Shown: in pieces, positions 1-11,847 of the stretch
How positions within the stretch are numbered: the stretch's first letter is position 1
Layout of the letters: every line of letters begins with the position of its first letter
Assembly: GCF_017813365.1 (NCBI RefSeq)
Contig: NZ_JAGIZA010000004.1
Coordinates: 62,001-126,000, forward strand
Length of the DNA: 64,000 bases
Reading direction: 5' to 3'
Origin: Roseomonas indoligenes
Lineage (GTDB): Bacteria > Pseudomonadota > Alphaproteobacteria > Acetobacterales > Acetobacteraceae
Notes under the pieces: model-generated
Databases searched by the model: none
Seen by the model: only the letters and a program-made list of their open reading frames with translations
Told to the model about the DNA's origin: nothing
Translations under genes and position numbers: made by a program

Positions 1-65
1 ACGAGATCGCCCACCTCGTAGCGCGAGACATAGGACCGGCCGTCCGGATCATAGCTGATTTCCAT
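1..65 (-). CDS. N-terminal fragment of an unidentified protein, cut by the window edge
   Basis: An open frame runs from an ATG at 65 down to the window edge and reads MEISYDPDGRSYVSRYEVGD and on. It has no stop and plausible codon use, but only about 21 codons are visible. No clear Shine-Dalgarno sequence precedes it and I do not recognise the family. It would be divergent from metE, sharing the 66-200 upstream region. Confidence 0.35.
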   Translation of the reverse strand, partial: MEISYDPDGRSYVSRYEVGDL

Positions 66-154
66 GGCGCCGCCGAAGGCTGGGGTTGGCCACCATCATC
101 CGCCAATCCGGTGAACGGATTGCTGATGCCCCGAGCCATTTAGGACATCCACTT

Positions 155-172
155 CATAAGGATATCTTTATG
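155..172. promoter_or_regulatory. 18-bp palindrome next to the metE promoter, candidate operator
   Basis: CATAAGGATATCTTTATG is an inverted repeat with 8 of 9 pairs Watson-Crick; only G160/T167 fails. It ends 4 bases before the proposed -35 element of metE. Its AT-rich form stands out in this GC-rich DNA. From memory it resembles operators of ArsR-family methionine-cycle regulators such as SahR, but I cannot check the published motif, and no such regulator is in the window. Confidence 0.55.
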
Positions 173-176
173 TCGC

Positions 177-205
177 TTGACACCTACCTCGGGCTCCGGT
201 CAGAT
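177..205 (+). promoter_or_regulatory. Candidate sigma-70 promoter of the metE riboswitch transcript
   Basis: TTGACA at 177-182 and TCAGAT at 200-205 are separated by 17 bases. Transcription would begin near 212, just where the conserved cobalamin riboswitch fold begins. The -35 element is a perfect consensus match; the -10 element is weaker. Confidence 0.5.
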
Positions 206-209
206 GAGG

Positions 210-420
210 GCGTCGAGGTTCCCCGGCGCGCGACCCTGCGCCGGGGCTAAGAGGGAACCCGGTGCAGGCGTGCGAGCGCCAAATCCGGGGCTGCCCCCGC
301 AACTGTGAGCGGCGAGCCGAGGTCCATCACGCGTCACTGGCGCCCGGGGTTCACGCCCAGGCGCCGGGAAGGCCGGACCGGAGGCGTTGACCCGTGAGCC
401 AGGAGACCTGCCCCGGCACA
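210..420 (+). ncRNA. Cobalamin riboswitch upstream of metE
   Basis: The AdoCbl/cobalamin riboswitch core is readable in order: an AGAGGGAACCCGGTG-type segment near 250-264, GGGGCTGCCCCCGCAACTGT near 287-306, CCGGGAAGGC near 364-373, and the terminal B12 box GAGCCAGGAGACCTGCC at 396-412. This class binds adenosyl- or related cobalamins and normally represses the downstream gene when B12 is plentiful. A small hairpin (75-79 of the 400s block paired with 483-487, i.e. CCGCC/GGCGG) lies between it and metE and could be part of the expression platform. Repressing a B12-independent methionine synthase is a classic use. Confidence 0.93.
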
Positions 421-547
421 TAACGTCCTCCGGCGGGGTGTCCGGTCAGGTCGCAGGTCCAGTACGGACGGATTCCGCCAGTGGCGGGATACGCCCGCGC
501 GACGGCTCGCGGCTGCCCTCCGCGCCAACACAGCAAAGGCGAGGTCC

Positions 548-2878
548 ATGTCCGTCACTGTCGCAACGCTCGGCTTCCCCCGCATCGGCCCCCGCCGCGA
601 ACTGAAGACCGCGCTCGAGAGCTACTGGTCCGGCAAGTCGGACCGCGCCGCGCTGCTCGCGGTCGCCGCCGGGCTGCGGGCGAAGACCTGGGCGCGGCAG
701 AAGGAGCTCGGCGTGGACCACGTGCCGAGCAACGACTTCTCCTTCTACGACCACGTGCTCGATACCAGCGCCATGGTCGGCGCCATCCCCGGCATCTACG
801 GCTGGACCGGTGGTCCTGTGGACCTCGACACCTATTTCGCCATGGCTCGGGGCGCCCAGGGAGCTGAAGGGGGCGAGGCGCACGCGGATTGCGGGCACGG
901 CTGCACCCACAAGGCCGTCGACGTGCCCGCCGCCGAGATGACGAAGTGGTTCGATACGAACTACCACTACCTCGTCCCCGAGTTCTCCACCGGCCAGTCC
1001 TTCGCCCTCTCCTCCACCAAGGTCGTGGACGAGTTCCTGGAGGCGAAGGCGCAGGGCGTCCACACCCGCCCCGTGCTGCTCGGCCCCGTGACCTTCCTCC
1101 GGCTGGGCAAGAGCCACACCGGCGACGTGAACCGCGAGGAGCTGCTGCGCGCCCTGCTGCCTGTCTACGAGGAGGTTCTGCGCCGCCTCTCCGCCGCGGG
1201 CGCCGACTGGGTGCAGATGGACGAGCCCTGCCTGGTGCTGGACCTTACCCATGAGGACCGGGCCCTGCTGGCGATGGCCTATGAGGCGCTGGGGAAGGCC
1301 GCGCCGGCGGTGAAGCTGATGCTGACGGCCTATTTTGGCGGGCTGGGTGAGAACCTGGACGAGGCGGTGAACCTGCCGGTCGCCGGGCTGCACCTGGACC
1401 TGGTGCGCGCGCCGGAGGAGCTGGAGGCCGTGCTGGCGAAGGCCCCGAAGGAACTGGTGCTCTCGCTCGGCGTGGTGGACGGCCGCAACGTGTGGCGCGC
1501 GGATCTGGAGACGATCCTGGCGCGGCTGGAGCCGGTGGCGAAAGGTCGCGACATCGTCCTCGCCCCCTCTTGCTCCCTGCTGCACACGCCGATCGACCTG
1601 GCGCAGGAGACGGCGCTGGACGAGGACGTGCGGAGCTGGCTCGCCTTCGCCGTGCAGAAGATCGAGGAGCTGGCGACGCTGGCCCGCGCCCTGAACGAGG
1701 GGCGGGCGAGCGTGGCCGGACCCCTCGCGGCCTCCTCCGCCGCCGCCGCCGCCCGCAGGACCTCTCCCAAGATCCATGACGGCGCGGTCGCGGCGCGGCT
1801 GAAGGCCGTGGATGCGGCCATGACGCGGCGCAACCTGGCCTTCGCCGATCGGCGCGGGCTGCAGGCGGAGGCGCTCGGCCTGCCCGCCTTCCCGACCACG
1901 ACCATCGGCTCCTTCCCCCAGACCGAGGAAGTCCGGCGCGCCCGCGCCGCCCATGGCAAGGGCACGATGACGGACGCGGACTACGAGGCTTTCCTCCGCG
2001 AGGAGACGGCCCGCACCGTGCGCTGGCAGGAGGAGATCGGGCTGGACGTACTGGTGCACGGCGAGTTCGAACGCAACGACATGGTGCAGTACTTCGGGGA
2101 GCAGCTCTCGGGCTTCGTCTTCACGAAGCATGGCTGGGTGCAGTCCTACGGCTCGCGCTGCGTGCGCCCGCCGATCCTGTTCGGCGACGTCTCCCGCCCC
2201 AAGCCGATGACAGTGGGGTGGTGGACCTATGCCCAGGGCCTGACGGAGCGGCCGATGAAGGGCATGCTGACGGGCCCCGTGACCATCCTCAACTGGTCCT
2301 TCGTGCGCGACGACGTGCCGCGGGAGCTGGCCTGCCGGCAGGTCGCCCTGGCCATTCGGGACGAGGTGGCGGACCTGGAGAAGGCGGGCGCGAAGGTCAT
2401 CCAGATCGACGAGGCCGCGCTGCGCGAGGGGCTGCCGCTGCGCCGGGGCGACTGGGAGCACTACCTGGACTGGGCGGTGGAGTGCTTCCGCATCACCGCT
2501 TCCGGCGTCGCGGACGCCACGCAGATCCACACCCACATGTGCTACTCGGAGTTCAACGACATCATCGCGGCCATCGGCGACATGGACGCGGACGTGATCT
2601 CCATCGAGACGGCGCGGTCCAGGATGGAGCTGCTGGGGGCCTTCGCGGATTACAGCTACCCGGCGGAGATCGGGCCGGGCGTCTACGACATCCACTCCCC
2701 CCGCGTGCCGGCGGTGGAGGAGATGACGGGGCTGCTGGCGGCCGCGCGGTCCCGCCTTTCGCCGGAACAGCTCTGGGTGAATCCGGATTGCGGCCTCAAG
2801 ACCCGCAAATGGCCTGAGACCCGCGCCGCCTTGGTGAACATGGTGGCCGCGGCGAAGCAGGTGCGGGAGCTCGCCTGA
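548..2878 (+). CDS. metE: Cobalamin-independent methionine synthase MetE
   Basis: Cytosolic 5-methyltetrahydropteroyltriglutamate-homocysteine methyltransferase, the last step of methionine synthesis without B12. The protein has 776 residues, slightly longer than the usual 750-760. The N-terminal MetE domain opens with LGFPRIGPRRELK; the catalytic C-terminal barrel starts near residue 455 (TTTIGSFPQT). Zinc ligands are visible as the HxC of THMC in the segment IHTHMCYSEFND, and the cysteine of NPDCGLKTR near the C-terminus. An extra Cys/His-rich stretch lies at residues 106-124 (C115, H117, C119, H121). It follows the cobalamin riboswitch and precedes metF. The ATG at 548 is preceded by AGGCGAGG and matches the family start. 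Confidence 0.97.
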   Translation: MSVTVATLGFPRIGPRRELKTALESYWSGKSDRAALLAVAAGLRAKTWARQKELGVDHVPSNDFSFYDHVLDTSAMVGAIPGIYGWTGGPVDLDTYFAMARGAQGAEGGEAHADCGHGCTHKAVDVPAAEMTKWFDTNYHYLVPEFSTGQSFALSSTKVVDEFLEAKAQGVHTRPVLLGPVTFLRLGKSHTGDVNREELLRALLPVYEEVLRRLSAAGADWVQMDEPCLVLDLTHEDRALLAMAYEALGKAAPAVKLMLTAYFGGLGENLDEAVNLPVAGLHLDLVRAPEELEAVLAKAPKELVLSLGVVDGRNVWRADLETILARLEPVAKGRDIVLAPSCSLLHTPIDLAQETALDEDVRSWLAFAVQKIEELATLARALNEGRASVAGPLAASSAAAAARRTSPKIHDGAVAARLKAVDAAMTRRNLAFADRRGLQAEALGLPAFPTTTIGSFPQTEEVRRARAAHGKGTMTDADYEAFLREETARTVRWQEEIGLDVLVHGEFERNDMVQYFGEQLSGFVFTKHGWVQSYGSRCVRPPILFGDVSRPKPMTVGWWTYAQGLTERPMKGMLTGPVTILNWSFVRDDVPRELACRQVALAIRDEVADLEKAGAKVIQIDEAALREGLPLRRGDWEHYLDWAVECFRITASGVADATQIHTHMCYSEFNDIIAAIGDMDADVISIETARSRMELLGAFADYSYPAEIGPGVYDIHSPRVPAVEEMTGLLAAARSRLSPEQLWVNPDCGLKTRKWPETRAALVNMVAAAKQVRELA

Positions 2879-2915
2879 CGGTTACCCCTGGAAGACAGGG
2901 TTCGAAGACCAAGAT

Positions 2916-2943
2916 CGGGGGCCATGCACCGGTGCGGCCCCCG
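2916..2943 (+). other. Strong hairpin between metE and metF
   Basis: CGGGGGCC at 2916-2923 pairs with GGCCCCCG at 2936-2943, and GCA/TGC pair inside it. There is no following run of T, so it may be an RNA-processing or partial termination signal rather than a full intrinsic terminator. It leaves room for metF to be cotranscribed with metE. Confidence 0.5.
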
Positions 2944-3005
2944 GTCCCGCCAGCCGCCCGGATGTGCGGCCAGTTGCTGTCGAGAGGGAACGAGACGTGG
3001 GGAAC

Positions 3006-3962
3006 ATGGTGAAGCTGGGACCGACGCTGGAGCGCTGGCTGGCCGGGGACCGGGTGGGACCCTTGCCGGCGCGCGACGCCGACCAGCCCCCGCCGCTGCT
3101 CTCCTTCGAGTTCTTCCCGCCGAAGACGGAGGCGCTGGAGCAGCAGCTCTGGGCCTGCGTGCGGCGGCTGGCACCGCTCCGGCCGCGCTTCGTCTCCGTC
3201 ACCTACGGGGCAGGGGGCAGCACCCATGCCCGGACCCACGCCACCGTCGCCCGCTTGGTCACGGAGACGGACCTGGTACCCGCCGCGCACCTGACCTGCG
3301 TGGGTGCGACGCGGGAGGAGGTGGACGAGGTGGCCCGGGGCTACTGGGATGCGGGGGTGCGGCACATCGTGGCCCTGCGCGGCGATGCGCCCCCCGGCAC
3401 CACTTACGCGCCCCATCCCGGCGGCTACGCCTATGCGGCCGACCTCGTGGAGGGGCTGCGGCGCATCGCCGACTTCGAGATCTCGGTCGCGGCCTATCCG
3501 GAGGTCCACCCTTCCGCGCGCAGCGCCGACGACGACCTGGACAGCCTGAAGCGCAAGCTCGACGCCGGGGCCACCCGGGCGATCACGCAGTATTTCTTCG
3601 ATACGGCGACCTATCTCCGGTTCCTGGAGCGGTGCCTGAAGGCCGGGATCACCGCGCCGATCGTGCCGGGGATCATGCCGGTGTCCAACTACGCCCAGGC
3701 CGCCAAGTTCTCCGCCATGTGCGGTACCTCCGTCCCGGACTGGCTCGGCGCCATGTTCGAGGGGACCGAGGACGACCCGGACATGCGGCGGACCGTCGCC
3801 ACGGTGGTTGCGTCCGAGCAGGTCCGCACCCTGCAGGCGAACGGGGTTGACGAGTTCCACTTCTATACGCTGAACCGTCCGGAACTGACCTATGCCATCG
3901 CCCATGTCCTGGGCGTGCGGCCGAGGCCTGCGGTTGCACCGGCCCCCGTCGGGGTCGCCTGA
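3006..3962 (+). CDS. metF: 5,10-methylenetetrahydrofolate reductase MetF
   Basis: FAD enzyme that reduces methylene-THF to methyl-THF, the methyl donor used by MetE or MetH. The MTHFR signature LSFEFFPPKTEALEQQLW lies near the N-terminus, followed by FVSVTYGAGGS, HLTCVG, IVALRGDAPPG and GGYAYAADLV, then TQYFFDT, all typical of bacterial MetF; the length of 318 residues fits a family of about 300. The ATG at 3006 is chosen; in-frame GTG codons at 2964 and 2997 are alternatives, and GAGAGGGAA at 2981-2989 would serve the one at 2997. It lies about 130 bases after metE and 30 before queH. Confidence 0.95.
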   Translation: MVKLGPTLERWLAGDRVGPLPARDADQPPPLLSFEFFPPKTEALEQQLWACVRRLAPLRPRFVSVTYGAGGSTHARTHATVARLVTETDLVPAAHLTCVGATREEVDEVARGYWDAGVRHIVALRGDAPPGTTYAPHPGGYAYAADLVEGLRRIADFEISVAAYPEVHPSARSADDDLDSLKRKLDAGATRAITQYFFDTATYLRFLERCLKAGITAPIVPGIMPVSNYAQAAKFSAMCGTSVPDWLGAMFEGTEDDPDMRRTVATVVASEQVRTLQANGVDEFHFYTLNRPELTYAIAHVLGVRPRPAVAPAPVGVA

Positions 3963-3992
3963 CGCAACCGCCGCCAGCCGGGGGAGAGAGAC

Positions 3993-4649
3993 ATGACCGA
4001 AGCCGAACGCCCCGTCCTCATCCCGCCCGGCGGCGCCCGGCGCGTGCTGCTGCACTCCTGCTGCGCGCCCTGCTCCGGTGAGGTGATGGAGGCCATGCTC
4101 GCCTCCGGCATCGACTACACGATCTTCTTCTACAATCCGAACATTCACCCGCGGCGCGAGTACGACCTGCGGAAAGACGAGAACATCCGCTTCGCCGAGA
4201 AGCACGGGGTGCCCTTCGTGGACGCGGATTACGACAAGGACGAGTGGTTCCGCCGCGCCAAGGGCATGGAGTGGGAGCCGGAGCGCGGCGCCCGCTGCAC
4301 CATGTGCTTCGACATGCGCTTCGACCGCACCGCCCTCTATGCCCACGAGCACGGCTTTCCGGTGATGACGAGCTGCCTCGGCATCTCCCGCTGGAAGAAC
4401 ATGGCCCAGATCAACGACAGCGGGCACAGGGCCGCGAAGCCCTATGAGGGCCTGTCCTACTGGGACTTCAACTGGCGCAAGGGCGGGGGCGCCGCCCGGA
4501 TGATCGAGATCTCCAAGCGCGAGGAGTTCTACCAGCAGGAGTATTGCGGCTGCGCCTATTCCCTGCGGGATACGAACCAGCATCGGCGGGAGCAGGGGCG
4601 GGAGCCGATCCGAATCGGCGAGCTGTATTACAAGGAAGATCCGAAGTAG
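3993..4649 (+). CDS. queH: Epoxyqueuosine reductase QueH (cobalamin-independent type)
   Basis: QueH (DUF208) carries out the last step of queuosine synthesis, reducing epoxyqueuosine to queuosine in the wobble position of GUN-anticodon tRNAs. It is an iron-sulfur enzyme that replaces the unrelated cobalamin enzyme QueG. The 218-residue protein shows the family cysteines: [11 protein letters not shown] near residue 20, CTMCFDMR near 102, and CGCAYSLRD near 184. [16 protein letters not shown] and [11 protein letters not shown] are also QueH-like. It begins 30 bases after metF, so it probably shares the cobalamin-riboswitch transcript, which fits its B12-independent chemistry. Confidence 0.93.
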
Positions 4650-4674
4650 CCCTTCGGACCCCGGGGAGAGAACG

Positions 4675-5850
4675 ATGAACCGCCGCACCCTCATACTCGG
4701 CGCGGCCGGGCTGCCTCTCGCCCAGGCAGCCCTGGCCCGCCCGGCGCTGGCGCAGGAAGCGCCGTTCCGGATCGGGCTGATCCTGTCCATGACCGGCCCC
4801 TTCGCCTCCACGGGAAAGCAGATCGAGGCGGCTGTGCGCCTCTATGCCCGCCAGAACTCTGCCTTTGCCGGCCGCCCGGTGGAGATCCTGCTGCGCGACG
4901 ATGGCGGCGCGGCGGATGCCACCCGGCGCCTGGCGCAGGAACTGGTGGTGAACGAGAAGGTCTCGGCCCTGGCCGGCTTCGTCCTCACCCCGCACGCCCT
5001 GGCCGCAGCCCCCATCGCCGCGCGCGCGCGGGTGCCGATGGTGGTGATGTCCGCCGCGACTGCAACCGTGACCGAGGCCTCGCCCTTCGTGTTCCGCACC
5101 TCCCAGACCACGCCGCAGGTCACGGTGCCCCTGGCGGGATGGGCGGCGGAGAACGGCGTCCGCAAGGCCGTTACCGTGGTGTCCGACTACGGGCCCGGGC
5201 TGGACGCGGAGAAGTGGTTCGGCCAGCGCCTGGGTGCCGCGGGCGGGACGGTGGCGGAGGCCCTGCGCGTGCCGCTGGCGAACCCGGATTTCGCGCCTTT
5301 CCTGCAGCGGGCGCGGGACGCGGCGCCGGACGCGGTCTTCGTCTTCGTTCCTGCAGGCGTCGGATCGATCTTCATGAAGCAGTTCGCGGAGCGCGGGCTC
5401 AAGGATGCGGGCATCCGGCTGATCGCGCTGGGCGACGTGCTGGACGACGACATCCTGAACGGCATGGGAGAGCCGGCGCTCGGCGTCATCTCCTCCCATC
5501 ACTACTCCGCCGCGCATGACAGCGAGGCGAACCGCCGCTTCGTCGCGGCCTTCCGCGAGGCGGCGGGGATGCGGCCCAACTTCATGGCCGCCGGCGGCTA
5601 TGACGGCATGACGCTGCTGCGCATGGCCGCCGAAAAGGTGGGCGCCGGCGCAGCCGGCCAGGCTCTGGCGGACGCGATGAAGGGCATGTCCTGGGAAAGC
5701 CCGCGCGGTCCCGTCAGCATCGATGCCGCGACGCGCGACATCGTGCAGAACGTCTATATCCGCCGCGTGGAGCGGCGGGAGGGCGAGCTCTACAACGTGG
5801 AGTTCGCCACCGTCCCGGCGGTGAAGGACCCGGCCAAGGCGGCAGGCTGA
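4675..5850 (+). CDS. Liv-type ABC transporter periplasmic binding protein
   Basis: Periplasmic solute-binding protein (type I fold, LivK/Peripla_BP_6 family) that would deliver a ligand to the LivHMGF permease encoded directly downstream. It has 391 residues, with a signal peptide in the first 26 (MNRRTLILGAAGLPLAQAAL, cleavage near ALAQ-EAP). The mature part begins FRIGLILSMTGPFASTGKQ, the usual opening of this family. It starts 25 bases after queH with GGGGAGAG before the ATG. The family binds branched-chain amino acids, amides, aromatic compounds and others, so the ligand cannot be read from sequence; the methionine-gene context allows a sulfur compound or methionine as a guess. Confidence 0.9.
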   Translation: MNRRTLILGAAGLPLAQAALARPALAQEAPFRIGLILSMTGPFASTGKQIEAAVRLYARQNSAFAGRPVEILLRDDGGAADATRRLAQELVVNEKVSALAGFVLTPHALAAAPIAARARVPMVVMSAATATVTEASPFVFRTSQTTPQVTVPLAGWAAENGVRKAVTVVSDYGPGLDAEKWFGQRLGAAGGTVAEALRVPLANPDFAPFLQRARDAAPDAVFVFVPAGVGSIFMKQFAERGLKDAGIRLIALGDVLDDDILNGMGEPALGVISSHHYSAAHDSEANRRFVAAFREAAGMRPNFMAAGGYDGMTLLRMAAEKVGAGAAGQALADAMKGMSWESPRGPVSIDAATRDIVQNVYIRRVERREGELYNVEFATVPAVKDPAKAAG

Positions 5851-5860
5851 CCCACGCCCC

Positions 5861-6721
5861 ATGCTGACGGTCCTGTTCGACGGCATCGCCTACGGGATGG
5901 TGCTGTTCATCCTCGCCTGCGGTCTGGCCGTCACCTTGGGGCTGATGAACCTCGTGAACCTCGCCCATGGCGCCTTCGCCATGGCCGGGGGCTATGCGGC
6001 GCTGGTGCTGGTGAACGCCTGGGGCGTGCCGTTCCTGGCGGCGCTGCCGCTGGTGTTCCTGGCCACCGCCGCTCTGGGCGCGGTGATGGAGCGGACGCTT
6101 TACGCGCAGGTCTATGCGCGCAGCCACCTGGACCAGGTGCTGTTCTCCGTGGGGCTGATCTTCATGGCGATGGCGGTGGTGGATTACGCGGCCGGGCCCA
6201 GCCAGCAATTCGTGCGGATCCCCGACGCGCTGCGCGGCCGGATCGAGGTTGCCGGGGTGGGCATGGGAATCTACCGCCTCCTGGTCATCGGCATCTGCGG
6301 CGCGGTGGCCCTGGCCCTGCACCTGGCCCTGGCCCGGACCCGCTTCGGCAGCCAGCTCCGCGCGGCGGTGGATGATGCGCGCGTCGCACGGGGGTTGGGG
6401 ATCGATGTGGGTCTGATCTTCACCGTCACCTTCGCCGTGGGCTCGGGCCTTGCCGGGCTGGGCGGGGCGCTTGGGGCGGATATCCTCGGGCTCGATCCCG
6501 GCTTCCCGCTGCGCTTCATGATCTACTTCCTGATCGTGGTGACGGTTGGCGGCACGGCCTCCATCCCCGGCGCCTTCCTCGCCTCGCTGCTGCTCGGCAT
6601 CGCGGACGTGGCGGGCAAGTACTACCTGCCCTCCATGGGGGCCTTCATCATCTACGGGGTGATGCTGGCGGTGCTGGTCTGGCGGCCGCAGGGGCTCTTC
6701 GGCCGGGCGGGCGCGCGATGA
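5861..6721 (+). CDS. livH: Liv-type ABC transporter permease LivH
   Basis: Inner-membrane permease of a branched-chain amino acid type importer, 286 residues with about eight hydrophobic segments. The first reads FDGIAYGMVLFILACGLAVT and is followed by GLMNLVNLAHGAFAMAGGY, the characteristic LivH N-terminal motif. GGTASIPGAFLASLLLGI near the C-terminus is also typical. It begins 10 bases after the binding-protein gene and overlaps livM by 4 bases (ATGA), so it is translationally coupled. Confidence 0.93.
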   Translation: MLTVLFDGIAYGMVLFILACGLAVTLGLMNLVNLAHGAFAMAGGYAALVLVNAWGVPFLAALPLVFLATAALGAVMERTLYAQVYARSHLDQVLFSVGLIFMAMAVVDYAAGPSQQFVRIPDALRGRIEVAGVGMGIYRLLVIGICGAVALALHLALARTRFGSQLRAAVDDARVARGLGIDVGLIFTVTFAVGSGLAGLGGALGADILGLDPGFPLRFMIYFLIVVTVGGTASIPGAFLASLLLGIADVAGKYYLPSMGAFIIYGVMLAVLVWRPQGLFGRAGAR

Positions 6722-7710
6722 CGGCCGCACCGGAGGAGACGGCCCGTCGGCAGCTGGCGGGGCTGGCGCGCTGGCGCCCGGCGGAGATCGCCTTCTGGGT
6801 GCTGGTCCTCGCCGCCTACTTCCTGTTCCCGCAACGCGCGGCGCTGATCGCGGAGGTGGCGGTGATTGCCCTCTTCGCGCTCTCGCTGGACCTCGTGCTC
6901 GGCTACGCCGGCATTCTCACCCTGGGCCATGCGGCCTTCTTCGGCTGGGGGGCCTATGCCGCCGGCATCGCCGCTGCCCGCGGATGGGAGGACCCGGTCC
7001 TGGGCTTGCTGCTGGGCGGTGGGACGGCGGGGGTGCTGGGTTTGCTGGGTGCGCCCCTTGTGCTGCGCGGCGGGGATCTGACGCGGCTGATGGTGACGCT
7101 CGGCCTTGCCACCGTGCTGCACGAGCTGGCCAATCGCTTCACCGGCCTGACTGGCGGGGCGGATGGGCTGCAGGGCATGAATGTCGGGCCGCTTCTCGGG
7201 AAGTTCGAGTTCGACCTGGAGGGGCATGTGGGCGCGGCCTACGCGCTGGCCGTGCTGTTCCTGGCCTTCCTGCTGCTGCGGCGCATCGCGCTCTCGCCCT
7301 TCGGCTGGTCGCTCCGGGCGATCCGCGCCAACCCGCTGCGCGCGGCGGCGCTGGGCATCCCGGTGCGGCGGCGGCTGGTGGCGGCCTACACGATCGGCGC
7401 CGCGCTGGCCGGGGTGGCGGGGGCGCTGCTGGCGCAGGTGACGCAATTCGTGTCGCTCGACGTGCTCTCCTTCCAGCGCTCGGCGGACGGGCTGCTGGTG
7501 CTGTTGATCGGCGGTGTCGGGTGGCTCTATGGCGGACTGGTCGGCGCGGTGGTCTTCAAGCTGATGCAGGACCTGCTCTCCAGCCTCACGCCGCAGTACT
7601 GGCAGTTCTGGATCGGGGCGCTGCTGGTGGCGCTGGTGCTGCTGGGGCGGGACCGGCCCCGCGCCTGGATCGCCGGGCTGCGCCGCCCGGCCGAAAGGGC
7701 CGCGCCGTGA
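6718..7710 (+). CDS. livM: Liv-type ABC transporter permease LivM
   Basis: Second membrane subunit of the importer, 330 residues. The segment ALSLDLVLGYAGILTLGHAA and the following FFGWGAYAAG are the LivM hallmark; later come VMVTLGLATVL-like and GGVGWLYGGLVGAVVFK segments. A cytoplasmic stretch of about 35 residues precedes the first membrane helix. It overlaps livH at its start by 4 bases and livG at its end by 4 bases. Confidence 0.93.
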   Translation: MTAAPEETARRQLAGLARWRPAEIAFWVLVLAAYFLFPQRAALIAEVAVIALFALSLDLVLGYAGILTLGHAAFFGWGAYAAGIAAARGWEDPVLGLLLGGGTAGVLGLLGAPLVLRGGDLTRLMVTLGLATVLHELANRFTGLTGGADGLQGMNVGPLLGKFEFDLEGHVGAAYALAVLFLAFLLLRRIALSPFGWSLRAIRANPLRAAALGIPVRRRLVAAYTIGAALAGVAGALLAQVTQFVSLDVLSFQRSADGLLVLLIGGVGWLYGGLVGAVVFKLMQDLLSSLTPQYWQFWIGALLVALVLLGRDRPRAWIAGLRRPAERAAP

Positions 7711-8451
7711 CGCCGGCGCTGGAGACGATCGGGCTGACGCATCACTTTGGCGCCTTCTGCGCGACCGACAGCGTCAGCCTCTCCCTTCCGCCCGGGGCGC
7801 GGCACGCGCTGATCGGGCCGAACGGCGCGGGCAAGACCACGCTGGTGAACCTGCTGACGGGCGTGCTGCGCCCGGGCGCCGGGCGCATCCTGCTGGCGGG
7901 CGAGGAGGTCACAGGGCTGGCGCAGGACCGCCGCGTGCGGCGCGGCCTGTCCCGCACCTTCCAGATCAACCAGCTCTTCCCGGAGATGACGCCGCTGCAG
8001 AGCGTCTCCCTGGCCGTTTCCCGCCGCCTGGGTCGGGACGGGGCCTGGTGGCGCCGCCTGGGCCATGGTGGCGCGGTTGCGGAGGAAGCGGCGGAGATCC
8101 TCGGGCGCTTCGGGCTATCCGACGCGATGGGGCGCCGCGTTGGTGACCTTCCCTACGGCCGTCAGCGCCTGCTGGAGGTCGCCCTGGCCATTGCCGCGCG
8201 CCCGCGCGTGCTGCTGCTGGACGAGCCCGCCGCCGGCGTGCCGGAGGCCGAGCGGGAGGACATCCTGGCCGCCGTCGCCGCCCTGCCGCGAGAGGTGGCG
8301 GTGCTGCTGATCGAGCACGACATGGACCTCGTCTTCCGCTTTGCCGAGCGCATCACCGTGCTGGTCGCCGGCGCGATGCTGATGGAGGGAACGCCCGCCG
8401 AGGTGGCCGCAGATCCCCGCGTGCGCGCGGTGTATCTCGGGGAGGGCGGGC

Positions 8452-8459
<8 letters not shown>
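7707..8459 (+). CDS. livG: Liv-type ABC transporter ATP-binding protein LivG
   Basis: Cytoplasmic ATPase of the importer, 250 residues. Walker A is GPNGAGKT, the signature region is LPYGRQRLLEVALA (the non-LSGGQ form usual for LivG) and Walker B is VLLLDEPAAGV, followed by the switch histidine in LIEHDMD. The FQ of the Q-loop is in SRTFQINQLFPEMT. The start is the GTG at 7707, inside the GTGA that also ends livM; the frame upstream of it is only a livM shadow. Confidence 0.93.
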
Positions 8460-9162
<703 letters not shown>

Positions 9163-9164
9163 GG

Positions 9165-9187
9165 GGGCCGGGGAGAACCCCCGGCCC
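9165..9187. terminator. Bidirectional terminator-like hairpin between livF and the MetE-like gene
   Basis: GGGCCGGGG at 9165-9173 pairs perfectly with CCCCGGCCC at 9179-9187 around a 5-base loop. It sits between two convergent genes, which fits termination from both sides, although there is no T run. Confidence 0.6.
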
Positions 9188-9195
9188 GCCAGGGC

Positions 9196-10329
9196 TCAGC
9201 GGCCCCAGAGCTCCTCGGACAGCTCCGCCACCAGGCGCAGCTTCGCCCACTGCTGCTCCTCGGAGAGCTTGTTGCCCTCCTGCGTGCTGGCGAAGCCGCA
9301 TTGCGGGCTGATCGCCAGCTGCTCCATCGGCAGGAACTTCGAGGCATCGTCCAGGCGGCGCTTCAGCTCGTCCTTGCTCTCCAGCTCGCCGGTCTTGCTG
9401 GTCATGATGCCCAGCACCACCACCTTGTTCCCGCGCGGCACGAAGCGTAGCGGCTCAAAGCCGCCTGAGCGCTCGTCGTCGAACTCCATGAAGTACGCGT
9501 CCACGTCGATCGCGTTGAACAGCACTTCGGCCACCGGCTCGTAGCCGCCCGTCGCGATGAAGGTGGACTGGAAGTTGCCGCGGCACAGGTGCATGGACAT
9601 CGCCATGTCCTTCGGCCGCGCGCGTGTCGCGCGGTTGATCATGTCGGCATAGATCTGCAGCAGCCCCTCGACATGCTCGCCGCGGCGCTTCAGGCCCTCG
9701 ATCTGCTGGGGGTCGCAGAGATAGGCGATGTTCACCTCGTCGAGCTGCAGGTAGCGGCAGCCCGCCGCGTAGAAGGCGCCGACGGCCTCCTCGTAGGTCG
9801 CGCCCAGGTCGCCGAAGAACTCGTCCATGTGCGGATAGACGGAGCGGTCGATCGCCTCGCGCCCGCCGCGGAAATGCACGACGCTGGGGGAGGGGATGGT
9901 CTGCTTCGGAATCGCCGTGCGGGTGCGGGAGGCGGTGTAGCGGAAGTCCTCGATCATGCTGGGTTTCCAGCCGATCTTGCCGGTCACCCGCAGCTTGTGG
10001 CCGAGGGTCGCGCCCTTGAAGGCCACCTTGTCCTCCGGCTCGTAGATCTCGATCCCGTCGAGGCCGCCGAGGAAGTCGTAGTGCCAATAGGCGCGGCGGT
10101 ACTCGCCGTCCGTCGCGGCCCGGAGGCCGACCTCCTCCTGCTTCGCGATGGCGCGGGCGATCTGCTCGTCCTCCACGGCGCGCAGGCCTGCGGCATCGAG
10201 CCGCCCCTCGGCACGGGCGGCGCGGGCCTCGCGCAGCGCCTGGGGCCGCAGCAGGCTGCCGACATGGTCGGCACGGAAGCTCGGGAAGCTGGCGGCGCGC
10301 GGCCGGTCAATCGTGTCCGAGTGGGACAT
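9196..10329 (-). CDS. MetE-like methyltransferase lacking the N-terminal MetE domain (YxjG/MetE-II type)
   Basis: A 377-residue cytosolic zinc methyltransferase made only of the catalytic MetE/UroD-type barrel. It opens with FRADHVGSLLRPQALREAR. Zinc ligands are visible as HxC in MSMHLCRGNF (about residue 245) and the cysteine of SPQCGFAS near residue 345. Family members transfer a methyl group to homocysteine; the methyl donor of the short forms is often not folate and is uncertain here. It has its own cobalamin riboswitch, which supports a role in B12-independent methionine formation. No MesX/DUF1852 partner is visible nearby. It is convergent with the liv genes. Confidence 0.85.
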   Translation of the reverse strand: MSHSDTIDRPRAASFPSFRADHVGSLLRPQALREARAARAEGRLDAAGLRAVEDEQIARAIAKQEEVGLRAATDGEYRRAYWHYDFLGGLDGIEIYEPEDKVAFKGATLGHKLRVTGKIGWKPSMIEDFRYTASRTRTAIPKQTIPSPSVVHFRGGREAIDRSVYPHMDEFFGDLGATYEEAVGAFYAAGCRYLQLDEVNIAYLCDPQQIEGLKRRGEHVEGLLQIYADMINRATRARPKDMAMSMHLCRGNFQSTFIATGGYEPVAEVLFNAIDVDAYFMEFDDERSGGFEPLRFVPRGNKVVVLGIMTSKTGELESKDELKRRLDDASKFLPMEQLAISPQCGFASTQEGNKLSEEQQWAKLRLVAELSEELWGR

Positions 10330-10401
10330 GGCTGGGCATCCTGACGTCAGAGGTCACCGCGGCCGGACCCTGGAAGAACCCCGCTTCCCGGTGGCGCGCT
10401 G

Positions 10402-10557
10402 ACATCGTGCTGGCAGGTCTCCTGGCTCGCGCCTCGCTGCCTTCCGCTGCCCTTCCGGTGCGACCCGGCGGCATGCGGCGATCGGCTCCGCGCTGACAGT
10501 TGCGGGGGCAGCCATGGTCTCTCACCATGTTCCCTTGAAGCCCTCCCGGGCACCAGC
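10402..10557 (-). ncRNA. Second cobalamin riboswitch, upstream of the MetE-like gene
   Basis: Read on the minus strand, the cobalamin riboswitch elements occur in order: GGCTTCAAGGGAACATGGTG, then GGCTGCCCCCGCAACTGTCA, CCGGAAGGGC-like pairing segments, and the B12 box GAGCCAGGAGACCTGCC (plus-strand complement at 10412-10428). The leader ends about 70 bases before the ATG at 10329. A 10-base palindrome CTGACGTCAG at 10341-10350 lies in that space. Confidence 0.92.
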
Positions 10558-10563
10558 AGGGCC

Positions 10564-10592
10564 GGTGTAGGGGGCGGGTCATTGGGCGTCAA
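10564..10592 (-). promoter_or_regulatory. Candidate promoter of the second riboswitch
   Basis: On the minus strand TTGACG (10592-10587) and TACACC (10569-10564) are 17 bases apart, placing the start of transcription near 10557, at the 5' edge of the riboswitch. The -10 match is moderate. Confidence 0.4.
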
Positions 10593-10734
10593 ATGACGGC
10601 AGGTTTTGCAGGGGACATACGGCGAGGCTGGTCCGGATCCGTCCTGTTTCCCTCCAGGGAGGAGTGGACCTTCGGCTTGCTTCCGGGCGCGGCAGGCCGT
10701 GACGGGGTGGCGGCGCTTCGCTAGGCTGCCGCCT

Positions 10735-11106
10735 ATGCCCTTCGCGCGGACAGGCCTCGTGCGCCTCATCGCTCTGCTGCTGCTGATGCAGTGGGCGGGC
10801 GCCGCCGTGCCGCATGCGCGGGCCATGGCGCGGGCGGCCACGGCCCAGGCCGTGGAACTCTGCACCCATGGGGGCCGGCGCCTCGTCGTGCTCGACAAGG
10901 ACGGCAGGCCCTTGCAGCCGGCCCAGGCCGATGACTGCTGCATCCTCTGCCACGGGCCGCTCGGCCCGGCGGCACCCGGGCCGGCGGTGGCGACCGGGGC
11001 GGCCGCCAACATCCTGCCCATGGCGGAGCCGTTCCGGCGGCCGGGCCTGCCCGCCCTCCCGCCGCGCGCACCCCCGCAGCAGCCCAGGGCTCCACCACAT
11101 TTCTGA
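10735..11106 (+). CDS. DUF2946-like small cysteine-containing exported protein
   Basis: A 123-residue protein with an N-terminal hydrophobic segment (residues 6-28, LVRLIALLLLMQWAGAAV) and a proline-rich tail. The middle carries CTHGG and DDCCILCHGP, the Cys/His pattern seen in DUF2946 proteins, which are often found beside copper genes. It precedes the PCu(A)C gene by about 270 bases, in the same direction. A role in copper handling at the membrane is an inference from context. The ATG at 10735 gives a clean signal segment. Confidence 0.6.
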   Translation: MPFARTGLVRLIALLLLMQWAGAAVPHARAMARAATAQAVELCTHGGRRLVVLDKDGRPLQPAQADDCCILCHGPLGPAAPGPAVATGAAANILPMAEPFRRPGLPALPPRAPPQQPRAPPHF

Positions 11107-11373: not shown

Positions 11374-11847
11374 ATGTCCTTCACCCGTCGCACGACTATT
11401 GCCACCATCGCCCTCTCGCCCGCCCTTGCCACCGCCCAGCAGGCCCCGTCCGGGGGCGTTGCGGTGGAGCAGCCCTGGATGCGTGCAGCGATCCAGGGCG
11501 GGACGGGTGGCGCCTTCCTGACCCTCCGCAACTCCGGCACGCAGCCGGACCGCCTCCTTTCCGCCAGCAGCCCGGCCGCGCGCGCGGTGGAACTGCACAG
11601 CACCGTGCGGCAGGGCGACGTGATGCGGATGCTGCCCGTGCAGGCGGTGGATGTGCCGGCGGGCGGCAGCGTCACCCTGCGGCCGGGCGGGCTGCACATC
11701 ATGCTCGTCGGTCTGGCCGAGGCTGCCCGGGCCGGAGGCACGGTGCCGCTGACCCTCAACTTCGAGCGGGCCGGCGCGGTGCCCGTGCAACTGGCCGTGC
11801 AGGCCGCCGGCGCTTCCGGCCCGGCCGGGCAGGGCCACCAGCACTGA
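11374..11847 (+). CDS. PCu(A)C-type periplasmic copper chaperone
   Basis: A 157-residue periplasmic protein that binds Cu(I) and hands it to the cytochrome oxidase CuA site in known homologues. The signal peptide is MSFTRRTTIATIALSPALAT. The mature protein starts VAVEQPWMRAAIQGG, typical of the family, and the copper motif is visible: ELHSTV, then MRM, then GGLHIML, matching H-x(n)-M...H-x-M. The C-terminus is His-rich (GQGHQH). The ATG at 11374 with AAGGAA upstream is preferred over the longer frame opening at 11329. Confidence 0.9.
   Translation: MSFTRRTTIATIALSPALATAQQAPSGGVAVEQPWMRAAIQGGTGGAFLTLRNSGTQPDRLLSASSPAARAVELHSTVRQGDVMRMLPVQAVDVPAGGSVTLRPGGLHIMLVGLAEAARAGGTVPLTLNFERAGAVPVQLAVQAAGASGPAGQGHQH

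Follow-up and report, generated by a model that had tools for sequence, protein, structure and literature searches.

MetH, NrdJ and methylmalonyl-CoA mutase have B12-independent counterparts in MetE, class I ribonucleotide reductase and the methylcitrate pathway, respectively. QueH is reportedly a non-orthologous replacement of QueG, as described by Zallot in 2017. The existence of B12-independent alternatives to B12-dependent enzymes is covered in PMC6461909, QueH is presented as a replacement of QueG, with citation of Zallot 2017, in PMC5372724, and control by cobalamin riboswitches of isozymes of B12-dependent enzymes is already known (PMC3766115), a metE riboswitch being described in P. 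megaterium (PMC9600662). Another cobalamin-independent system is MesD/MesX, a methionine synthase that can do without both methyl-folate and cobalamin (PMC7857596). In alphaproteobacteria the methionine-cycle genes are controlled by SahR, whose regulon has metH and metF at its core and, in some of the genomes, metE as a further member (PMC4239095).

The locus analyzed here lies at the beginning of a 64,000-nucleotide stretch of Roseomonas indoligenes DNA (hereafter the window) and consists of a cobalamin riboswitch followed by metE, metF and queH. As in the systems described in PMC3766115 and PMC9600662, a cobalamin riboswitch precedes metE and the same genome carries metH; unlike in the accounts consulted, queH is the third gene, and its B12-dependent partner queG is gone. 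The combination of QueH present, QueG absent and queA present conforms to the QueH/QueG replacement. The locus goes beyond it in that queG can be seen to have disappeared from its native site within one genus and in that queH is found behind a B12 riboswitch. A palindrome ahead of both metE and metH resembles the arrangement of the SahR regulon (PMC4239095), the operator being putative. The mesD and mesX genes, which accompany queH at 12 of 94 loci (see below), were not found in the first 12 kb of the window.

The locus is thus a variation on a known theme, because riboswitch control of such isozymes was described before (PMC3766115). Its apparent novelty is queH as third gene behind a metE cobalamin riboswitch. 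A partial literature search yielded no report of queH under a cobalamin riboswitch or in clusters of B12-independent isozymes; the main text of PMC7857596 has no mention of queH and that of PMC4239095 none of COG1636/DUF208.

Organization of the locus and its leader

The features of the locus and of its immediate neighbours are listed in Table 1. Both the amino- and carboxyl-terminal domains of MetE were found (PF08267, PF01717). QueH matches the sequence of the solved QueH chain 7lc5_A (E 4.5e-23), and its seven cysteines, distributed over the motifs HSCCAPC, RCxxC and YCGC, are invariant in 15 aligned sequences.

Table 1. Features of the metE-metF-queH locus and its neighbours (positions in the window)
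Feature	Positions	Strand	Evidence and remarks
Palindrome ATAAGGATATCTTTAT, candidate SahR-type operator (tentative name)	156-171		core search
TTGACA, -35-like hexamer	177-182	+	read in the sequence, just after the palindrome
Cobalamin riboswitch aptamer	199-429	+	RF00174, 105 bits against a gathering score of 31.5; covers all 189 model positions
metE, B12-independent methionine synthase	548-2878	+	TIGR01371, 1129.7 bits, above cut-off
GC-rich hairpin, metE/metF junction	2913-2946	+	-26.1 kcal/mol, z -2.37; without 3' T-run
metF, methylenetetrahydrofolate reductase	2964 (or 3006)-3962	+	TIGR00676, 335.2 bits, above cut-off; PF02219
queH, B12-independent epoxyqueuosine reductase	3993-4649	+	PF02677, 217 bits
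Five-gene ABC transporter operon, branched-chain-amino-acid type	4675-9162	+	neighbour; starts 25 bp after queH
Short MetE-like gene, 377 aa, C-terminal catalytic domain only	9196-10329	-	NF005085, 515.7 bits, above cut-off
Second cobalamin riboswitch	10408-10558	-	neighbour; RF00174, 78 bits

The sequence-only reading had described a complete riboswitch and then metE, metF and queH on one strand, and this is borne out by the full-length RF00174 match and by family scores above their cut-offs. The gaps that it gave as about 130 and 30 bases also agree with those measured: 127 bases between metE and metF if metF starts at ATG 3006, or 85 if it starts at GTG 2964, the start being ambiguous, and 30 bases between metF and queH. 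The latter gap is unstructured in the window according to folding. A promoter and terminator scan of positions 1-11000, gene junctions included, gave nothing above chance. The common strand and the gaps of 85 or 127 bp and of 30 bp would suit co-transcription of the three genes, against which the GC-rich hairpin at the metE/metF junction has to be set. Their order is not a product of chance, because it recurs in G052, a genome of another genus.

Folding of the leader gave no clear sequestering helix, terminator or switch structure, and no mechanism class is therefore claimed for the riboswitch; the scan likewise found no intrinsic terminator in the leader. Upstream of the aptamer, the palindrome core AAGGATATCTTT (158-169) has, with at most two mismatches, two matches in 119 kb of DNA of the same genome, where 0.14 are expected. 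One is in the metE leader and the other upstream of metH; only the metH match is independent, since the core was defined from the metE-leader site and G052. At the -35-like hexamer, as in the rest of 1-11000, the promoter scan found no full sigma-70 site. The palindrome is present in five of nine metE leaders, those of G134, G037, G083 and Nitrobacter being devoid of it, and in neither of two leaders of the short MetE-like gene. In L035, L036 and L053, matches resembling SahR sites that precede metF-queH were discarded, further matches being found elsewhere in the same stretches. Note that in the own genome (L129 4860-11271, contig C19) metH, with the SahR-like palindrome upstream, adjoins a riboswitch-controlled TonB receptor gene.

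It is conceivable, if rather improbable, that queH belongs with the methionine/SAM regulon (metF, metE, metH) and has no link to B12 itself. The SahR-type palindrome at metE and upstream of metH would fit this proposal, as would the metF-queH pairs that three acetic acid bacteria carry without riboswitch. Against it, the palindrome is restricted to five of the nine metE leaders, and queH also adjoins nrdAB and methylcitrate genes (see below), whose common trait is B12 independence and not methionine.

The genes that follow queH were also considered. The best plasmid matches for the first 12 kb of the window come from Roseomonas and are ~77% identical over the transporter genes. The ABC transporter was set aside as a part of the unit: its orthologues follow catechol-pathway genes on two Roseomonas plasmids, and none was found within the 1.9 kb beyond queH in the G052 contig L029. 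The transporter operon is probably outside the metE-metF-queH unit, although read-through from the riboswitch could reach it, as it begins so close to queH. The second riboswitch stands before the short MetE-like gene, ~5 kb beyond queH, and the same pair, with a gene 87% identical, is found in G102, a genome of the same genus.

metH, queG and the probable origin of the operon

The genome that contains the window (5.8 Mb, 61 contigs, 99.35% complete) codes for MetH (1206.8 bits, cut-off 1010.85) and carries queA, and it has no TIGR00276 match that would identify queG. It has three cobalamin riboswitches, ahead of metE, of the short MetE-like gene and of a TonB-dependent receptor gene; the receptor resembles B12 receptors and scores below the cut-off of that family. 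The presence of metH provides metE with a B12-dependent partner, so that metE/metH can be a real B12 swap.

The situation is the opposite in what concerns queH. All 14 other genomes of the genus examined (G003, G102, G150-G161) have queG and none has queH, which makes one genome in 15 with queH when that of the window is counted. In G003, queG lies ~1.7 kb beyond queA on the same strand. Alignment of this region with its counterpart in the own genome (L130) matches both flanks, with 84.0% identity over 2,887 columns and 79.8% over 1,035; the alignment breaks at position 11495 of L130 and restarts at 11523, where G003 has 1,041 bp that include queG. A tblastn search of L130 with two queG proteins gave no credible match. 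Intact flanks around a missing queG, together with its presence in all 14 congeners examined, lead to the conclusion that the replacement of QueG by QueH occurred within the genus. Since queG is absent, QueH is a permanent replacement and has nothing to stand in for when B12 is low.

The swap of B12-dependent and B12-independent enzymes proposed earlier is consequently retained for metE, whose partner metH is present, and abandoned for queH, which has no queG partner. The claim that low B12 switches on both replacements together is not supported, as the genome gave no queG match and its ancestral site lacks queG between aligned flanks. The search of relatives for metH, queG and the same gene order, which it had recommended, gave metH and no queG in the own genome, and the same order in G052.

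G052 belongs to another genus of the family and carries the riboswitch, metE (75% identity), metF (84%) and queH (84%), with no match to queG. Its metF-queH gap is longer (~280 bp) and holds a strong palindromic hairpin (z -6.5), so that each of the two genomes has a strong hairpin at one gene junction: metE/metF in the window and metF/queH in G052. The G052 hairpin (L029 2700-2830, minus strand) is large and near-perfect; it may represent either a mobile palindrome or a terminator that lacks a T-run.

The metE gene of the window is closer to that of G052 than to that of G003, from its own genus, with which it shares 61% identity. In the metE tree the window copy and G003 metE are placed in separate supported clades (branches 99/99 and 100/98), and acquisition of the operon by transfer is therefore likely. 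The grouping with G052 is weakly supported in the QueH tree, and the G+C content of the operon is not foreign. The operon would have been transferred as one block, and the gain of queH would have preceded the loss of queG.

Neighbourhoods and distribution of queH

The 94 queH loci whose flanks were inspected include 80 named loci, which are the best 80 of at least 572 confirmed candidates and are biased to relatives of the window QueH, and 14 of the 17 queH loci of the family (window included; G029, G116 and G118 left out). Flanks extended to at most 8 kb in the named loci and to ~4-7 kb in most of those from the family; L029 was used over its entire 17-kb contig and the window over its first 12 kb. 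Note that related genera are counted repeatedly, namely three Xanthomonas, two Pseudomonas and three acetic acid bacteria.

Of these 94 loci, 21 have in their flanks a gene from another B12-independent system (metE, nrdAB, methylcitrate or mesXD), as against none of 27 non-queH stretches, which were 20 alphaproteobacterial stretches (332 kb) chosen by position and 7 further ones, beta- and gammaproteobacteria not being represented. At fixed thresholds, metE, nrdAB or methylcitrate genes are near queH in 9/32 alphaproteobacterial loci and 1/62 other loci (0/27 controls); the latter is L107, with prpC 7.1 kb off, which is left out of the 21. The mesD and mesX genes occur together near queH in 3/32 alphaproteobacterial and 9/62 other loci (0/27 controls). 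This association strengthens the B12-sparing idea put forward from the sequence. It also bears on a reading of queH and metF as chance neighbours, queH having landed behind metF without meaning. The rarity of the arrangement would suit that reading, queH being found in a single genome of 15 in the genus and riboswitches near queH in none of 34 genomes of a class sample. Repetition of the order in another genus and the 21/94 against 0/27 largely refute it and make it very improbable.

The arrangements around queH are diverse. In Nitrobacter vulgaris (L049), queH lies between divergent riboswitch-nrdA-nrdB and riboswitch-metE units; Hyphomonas (L050) has the series prpC, prpB, queH, riboswitch, metE; and in Sphingopyxis (L055) queH is flanked by divergent acnD, prpF, prpC and prpB and by riboswitch-metE. 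Family names were checked for seven proteins of these three loci. The two cobalamin riboswitches of the Nitrobacter locus (L049 3354-11381) point apart around queH. The series prpC-prpB-queH is found in a Devosia MAG and in a Pseudochrobactrum, the acnD side of the arrangement recurs in a Sphingomonas, and metE-queH occurs in one MAG. In L072 metE is followed by queH and the riboswitch is absent from the stretch, and there are no Rfam matches in nine stretches (L054, L082, L062, L056, L057, L059, L060, L033 and L034). Three acetic acid bacteria (L035, L036, L053) have a metF-queH pair without riboswitch that converges on mesD-mesX. Such differences between groups argue for repeated assembly.

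The position of queH relative to the riboswitch also varies. It is upstream in Nitrobacter, Hyphomonas and Sphingopyxis, where that riboswitch therefore cannot control it, and downstream in the window and G052 only. Among the nine alphaproteobacterial genomes in which queH has metE, nrdAB or methylcitrate genes in its flanks, six were checked for queG: it is absent from five (window, G052, Nitrobacter, Hyphomonas and the L072 genome) and present in Sphingopyxis. In the acetic acid bacteria G009, G131 and Novacetimonas, queG and queH coexist.

In the family sample, queH is present in 17 of 150 genomes and queG gives a match in 128, of which 126 score above the cut-off. Three of the 17 also have queG (G009, G131 and G134). 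Among the 14 with queH and without queG, MetH is kept by G000, G037 and G052, and 11 have no MetH above the cut-off; 10 of these 11 lack a cobalamin riboswitch as well, G083 having one, and these genomes therefore seem to have left B12. In 2 of the 17 (window and G052) a riboswitch precedes metE and then queH. In the class sample, which has queH in 36 of 385 genomes, comparison of riboswitch positions relative to queH in the 34 others identified six genomes with a riboswitch and none with one near queH. The location of queH behind a cobalamin riboswitch is thus a rare arrangement.

Reach of the riboswitch and reading of the operon

Whether a regulatory role follows from this organization depends on how far the riboswitch acts. 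It might truly set queH, such that B12 supply controls tRNA queuosine, with oQ accumulating at high B12 and Q being made at low B12, and the cell making use of the coupling. The position of queH 30 bp past metF, across an unstructured gap and behind one riboswitch, the lack of promoters and terminators above chance in 1-11000 and the lack of a queG that would buffer the effect all lend themselves to this proposal. We consider it unlikely, as there is no evident benefit in shutting off the only oQ reductase when B12 is plentiful, a hairpin stands at the metE/metF junction, and the close spacing is not kept in G052, the sole other genome with the same order, where 280 bp precede queH. Were it true, B12 would be a negative regulator of tRNA queuosine, and wobble modification and the decoding of NAU and NAC codons would track vitamin status inversely.

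The chances are about even that queH is instead insulated, the riboswitch acting on metE only (for example on its translation) and queH being expressed steadily from read-through or an internal promoter, so that the operon would be more a unit of transfer than of regulation. The leader, in which no intrinsic terminator was found, the strong hairpin at one junction in the window and in G052, and the three relatives in which queH precedes the riboswitch are in line with insulation. On the other side, no promoter-like site was found before queH, a 30-bp gap is typical of co-transcription, and translational repression of metE could still lower the downstream genes by polarity. Insulation overlaps with the explanation preferred here, which does not depend on it, and the odds given to the two are not exclusive.

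We favour, with a probability of roughly 0.7, that the locus is an acquired B12-independence operon. The sequences themselves establish the parts and their order, the presence of metH, the absence of queG between intact flanks and the proximity of queH to genes of B12-independent enzymes elsewhere. In the proposed mechanism one transcript would encode MetE, MetF and QueH, probably under a methionine-regulon operator followed by the cobalamin riboswitch. When B12 is plentiful the riboswitch would lower metE expression, leaving MetH to make methionine; when B12 is short metE would be expressed, the state of the methionine cycle being possibly an additional input. QueH would have arrived with the operon and taken over the last step of queuosine synthesis, queG being lost afterwards, and queuosine would since then be B12-free, with QueH as its standing route.

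If the riboswitch reaches queH, its effect would be one-sided: more B12 would mean less queuosine, with no back-up enzyme. Repression of the whole transcript at high B12 would cut the only oQ reductase, and perhaps also MetF, on which MetH depends, and this is a counterpoint to the operon, as are the ~280-bp gap with its hairpin in G052, the three relatives whose queH lies ahead of the riboswitch and the rarity of the order. A cut of the sole oQ reductase at high B12 is hard to see as an adaptation, and leaky control, insulation or no effect are therefore to be expected.

The operon resembles an intermediate in a gradual departure from B12 dependence, in which methionine synthesis can still be switched between MetH and MetE and queuosine has been moved for good to QueH. 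The proximity of queH to four different B12-independent systems in proteobacteria points to a physiological theme for QueH, and the locus allows the relation of tRNA modification to vitamin status to be tested directly.
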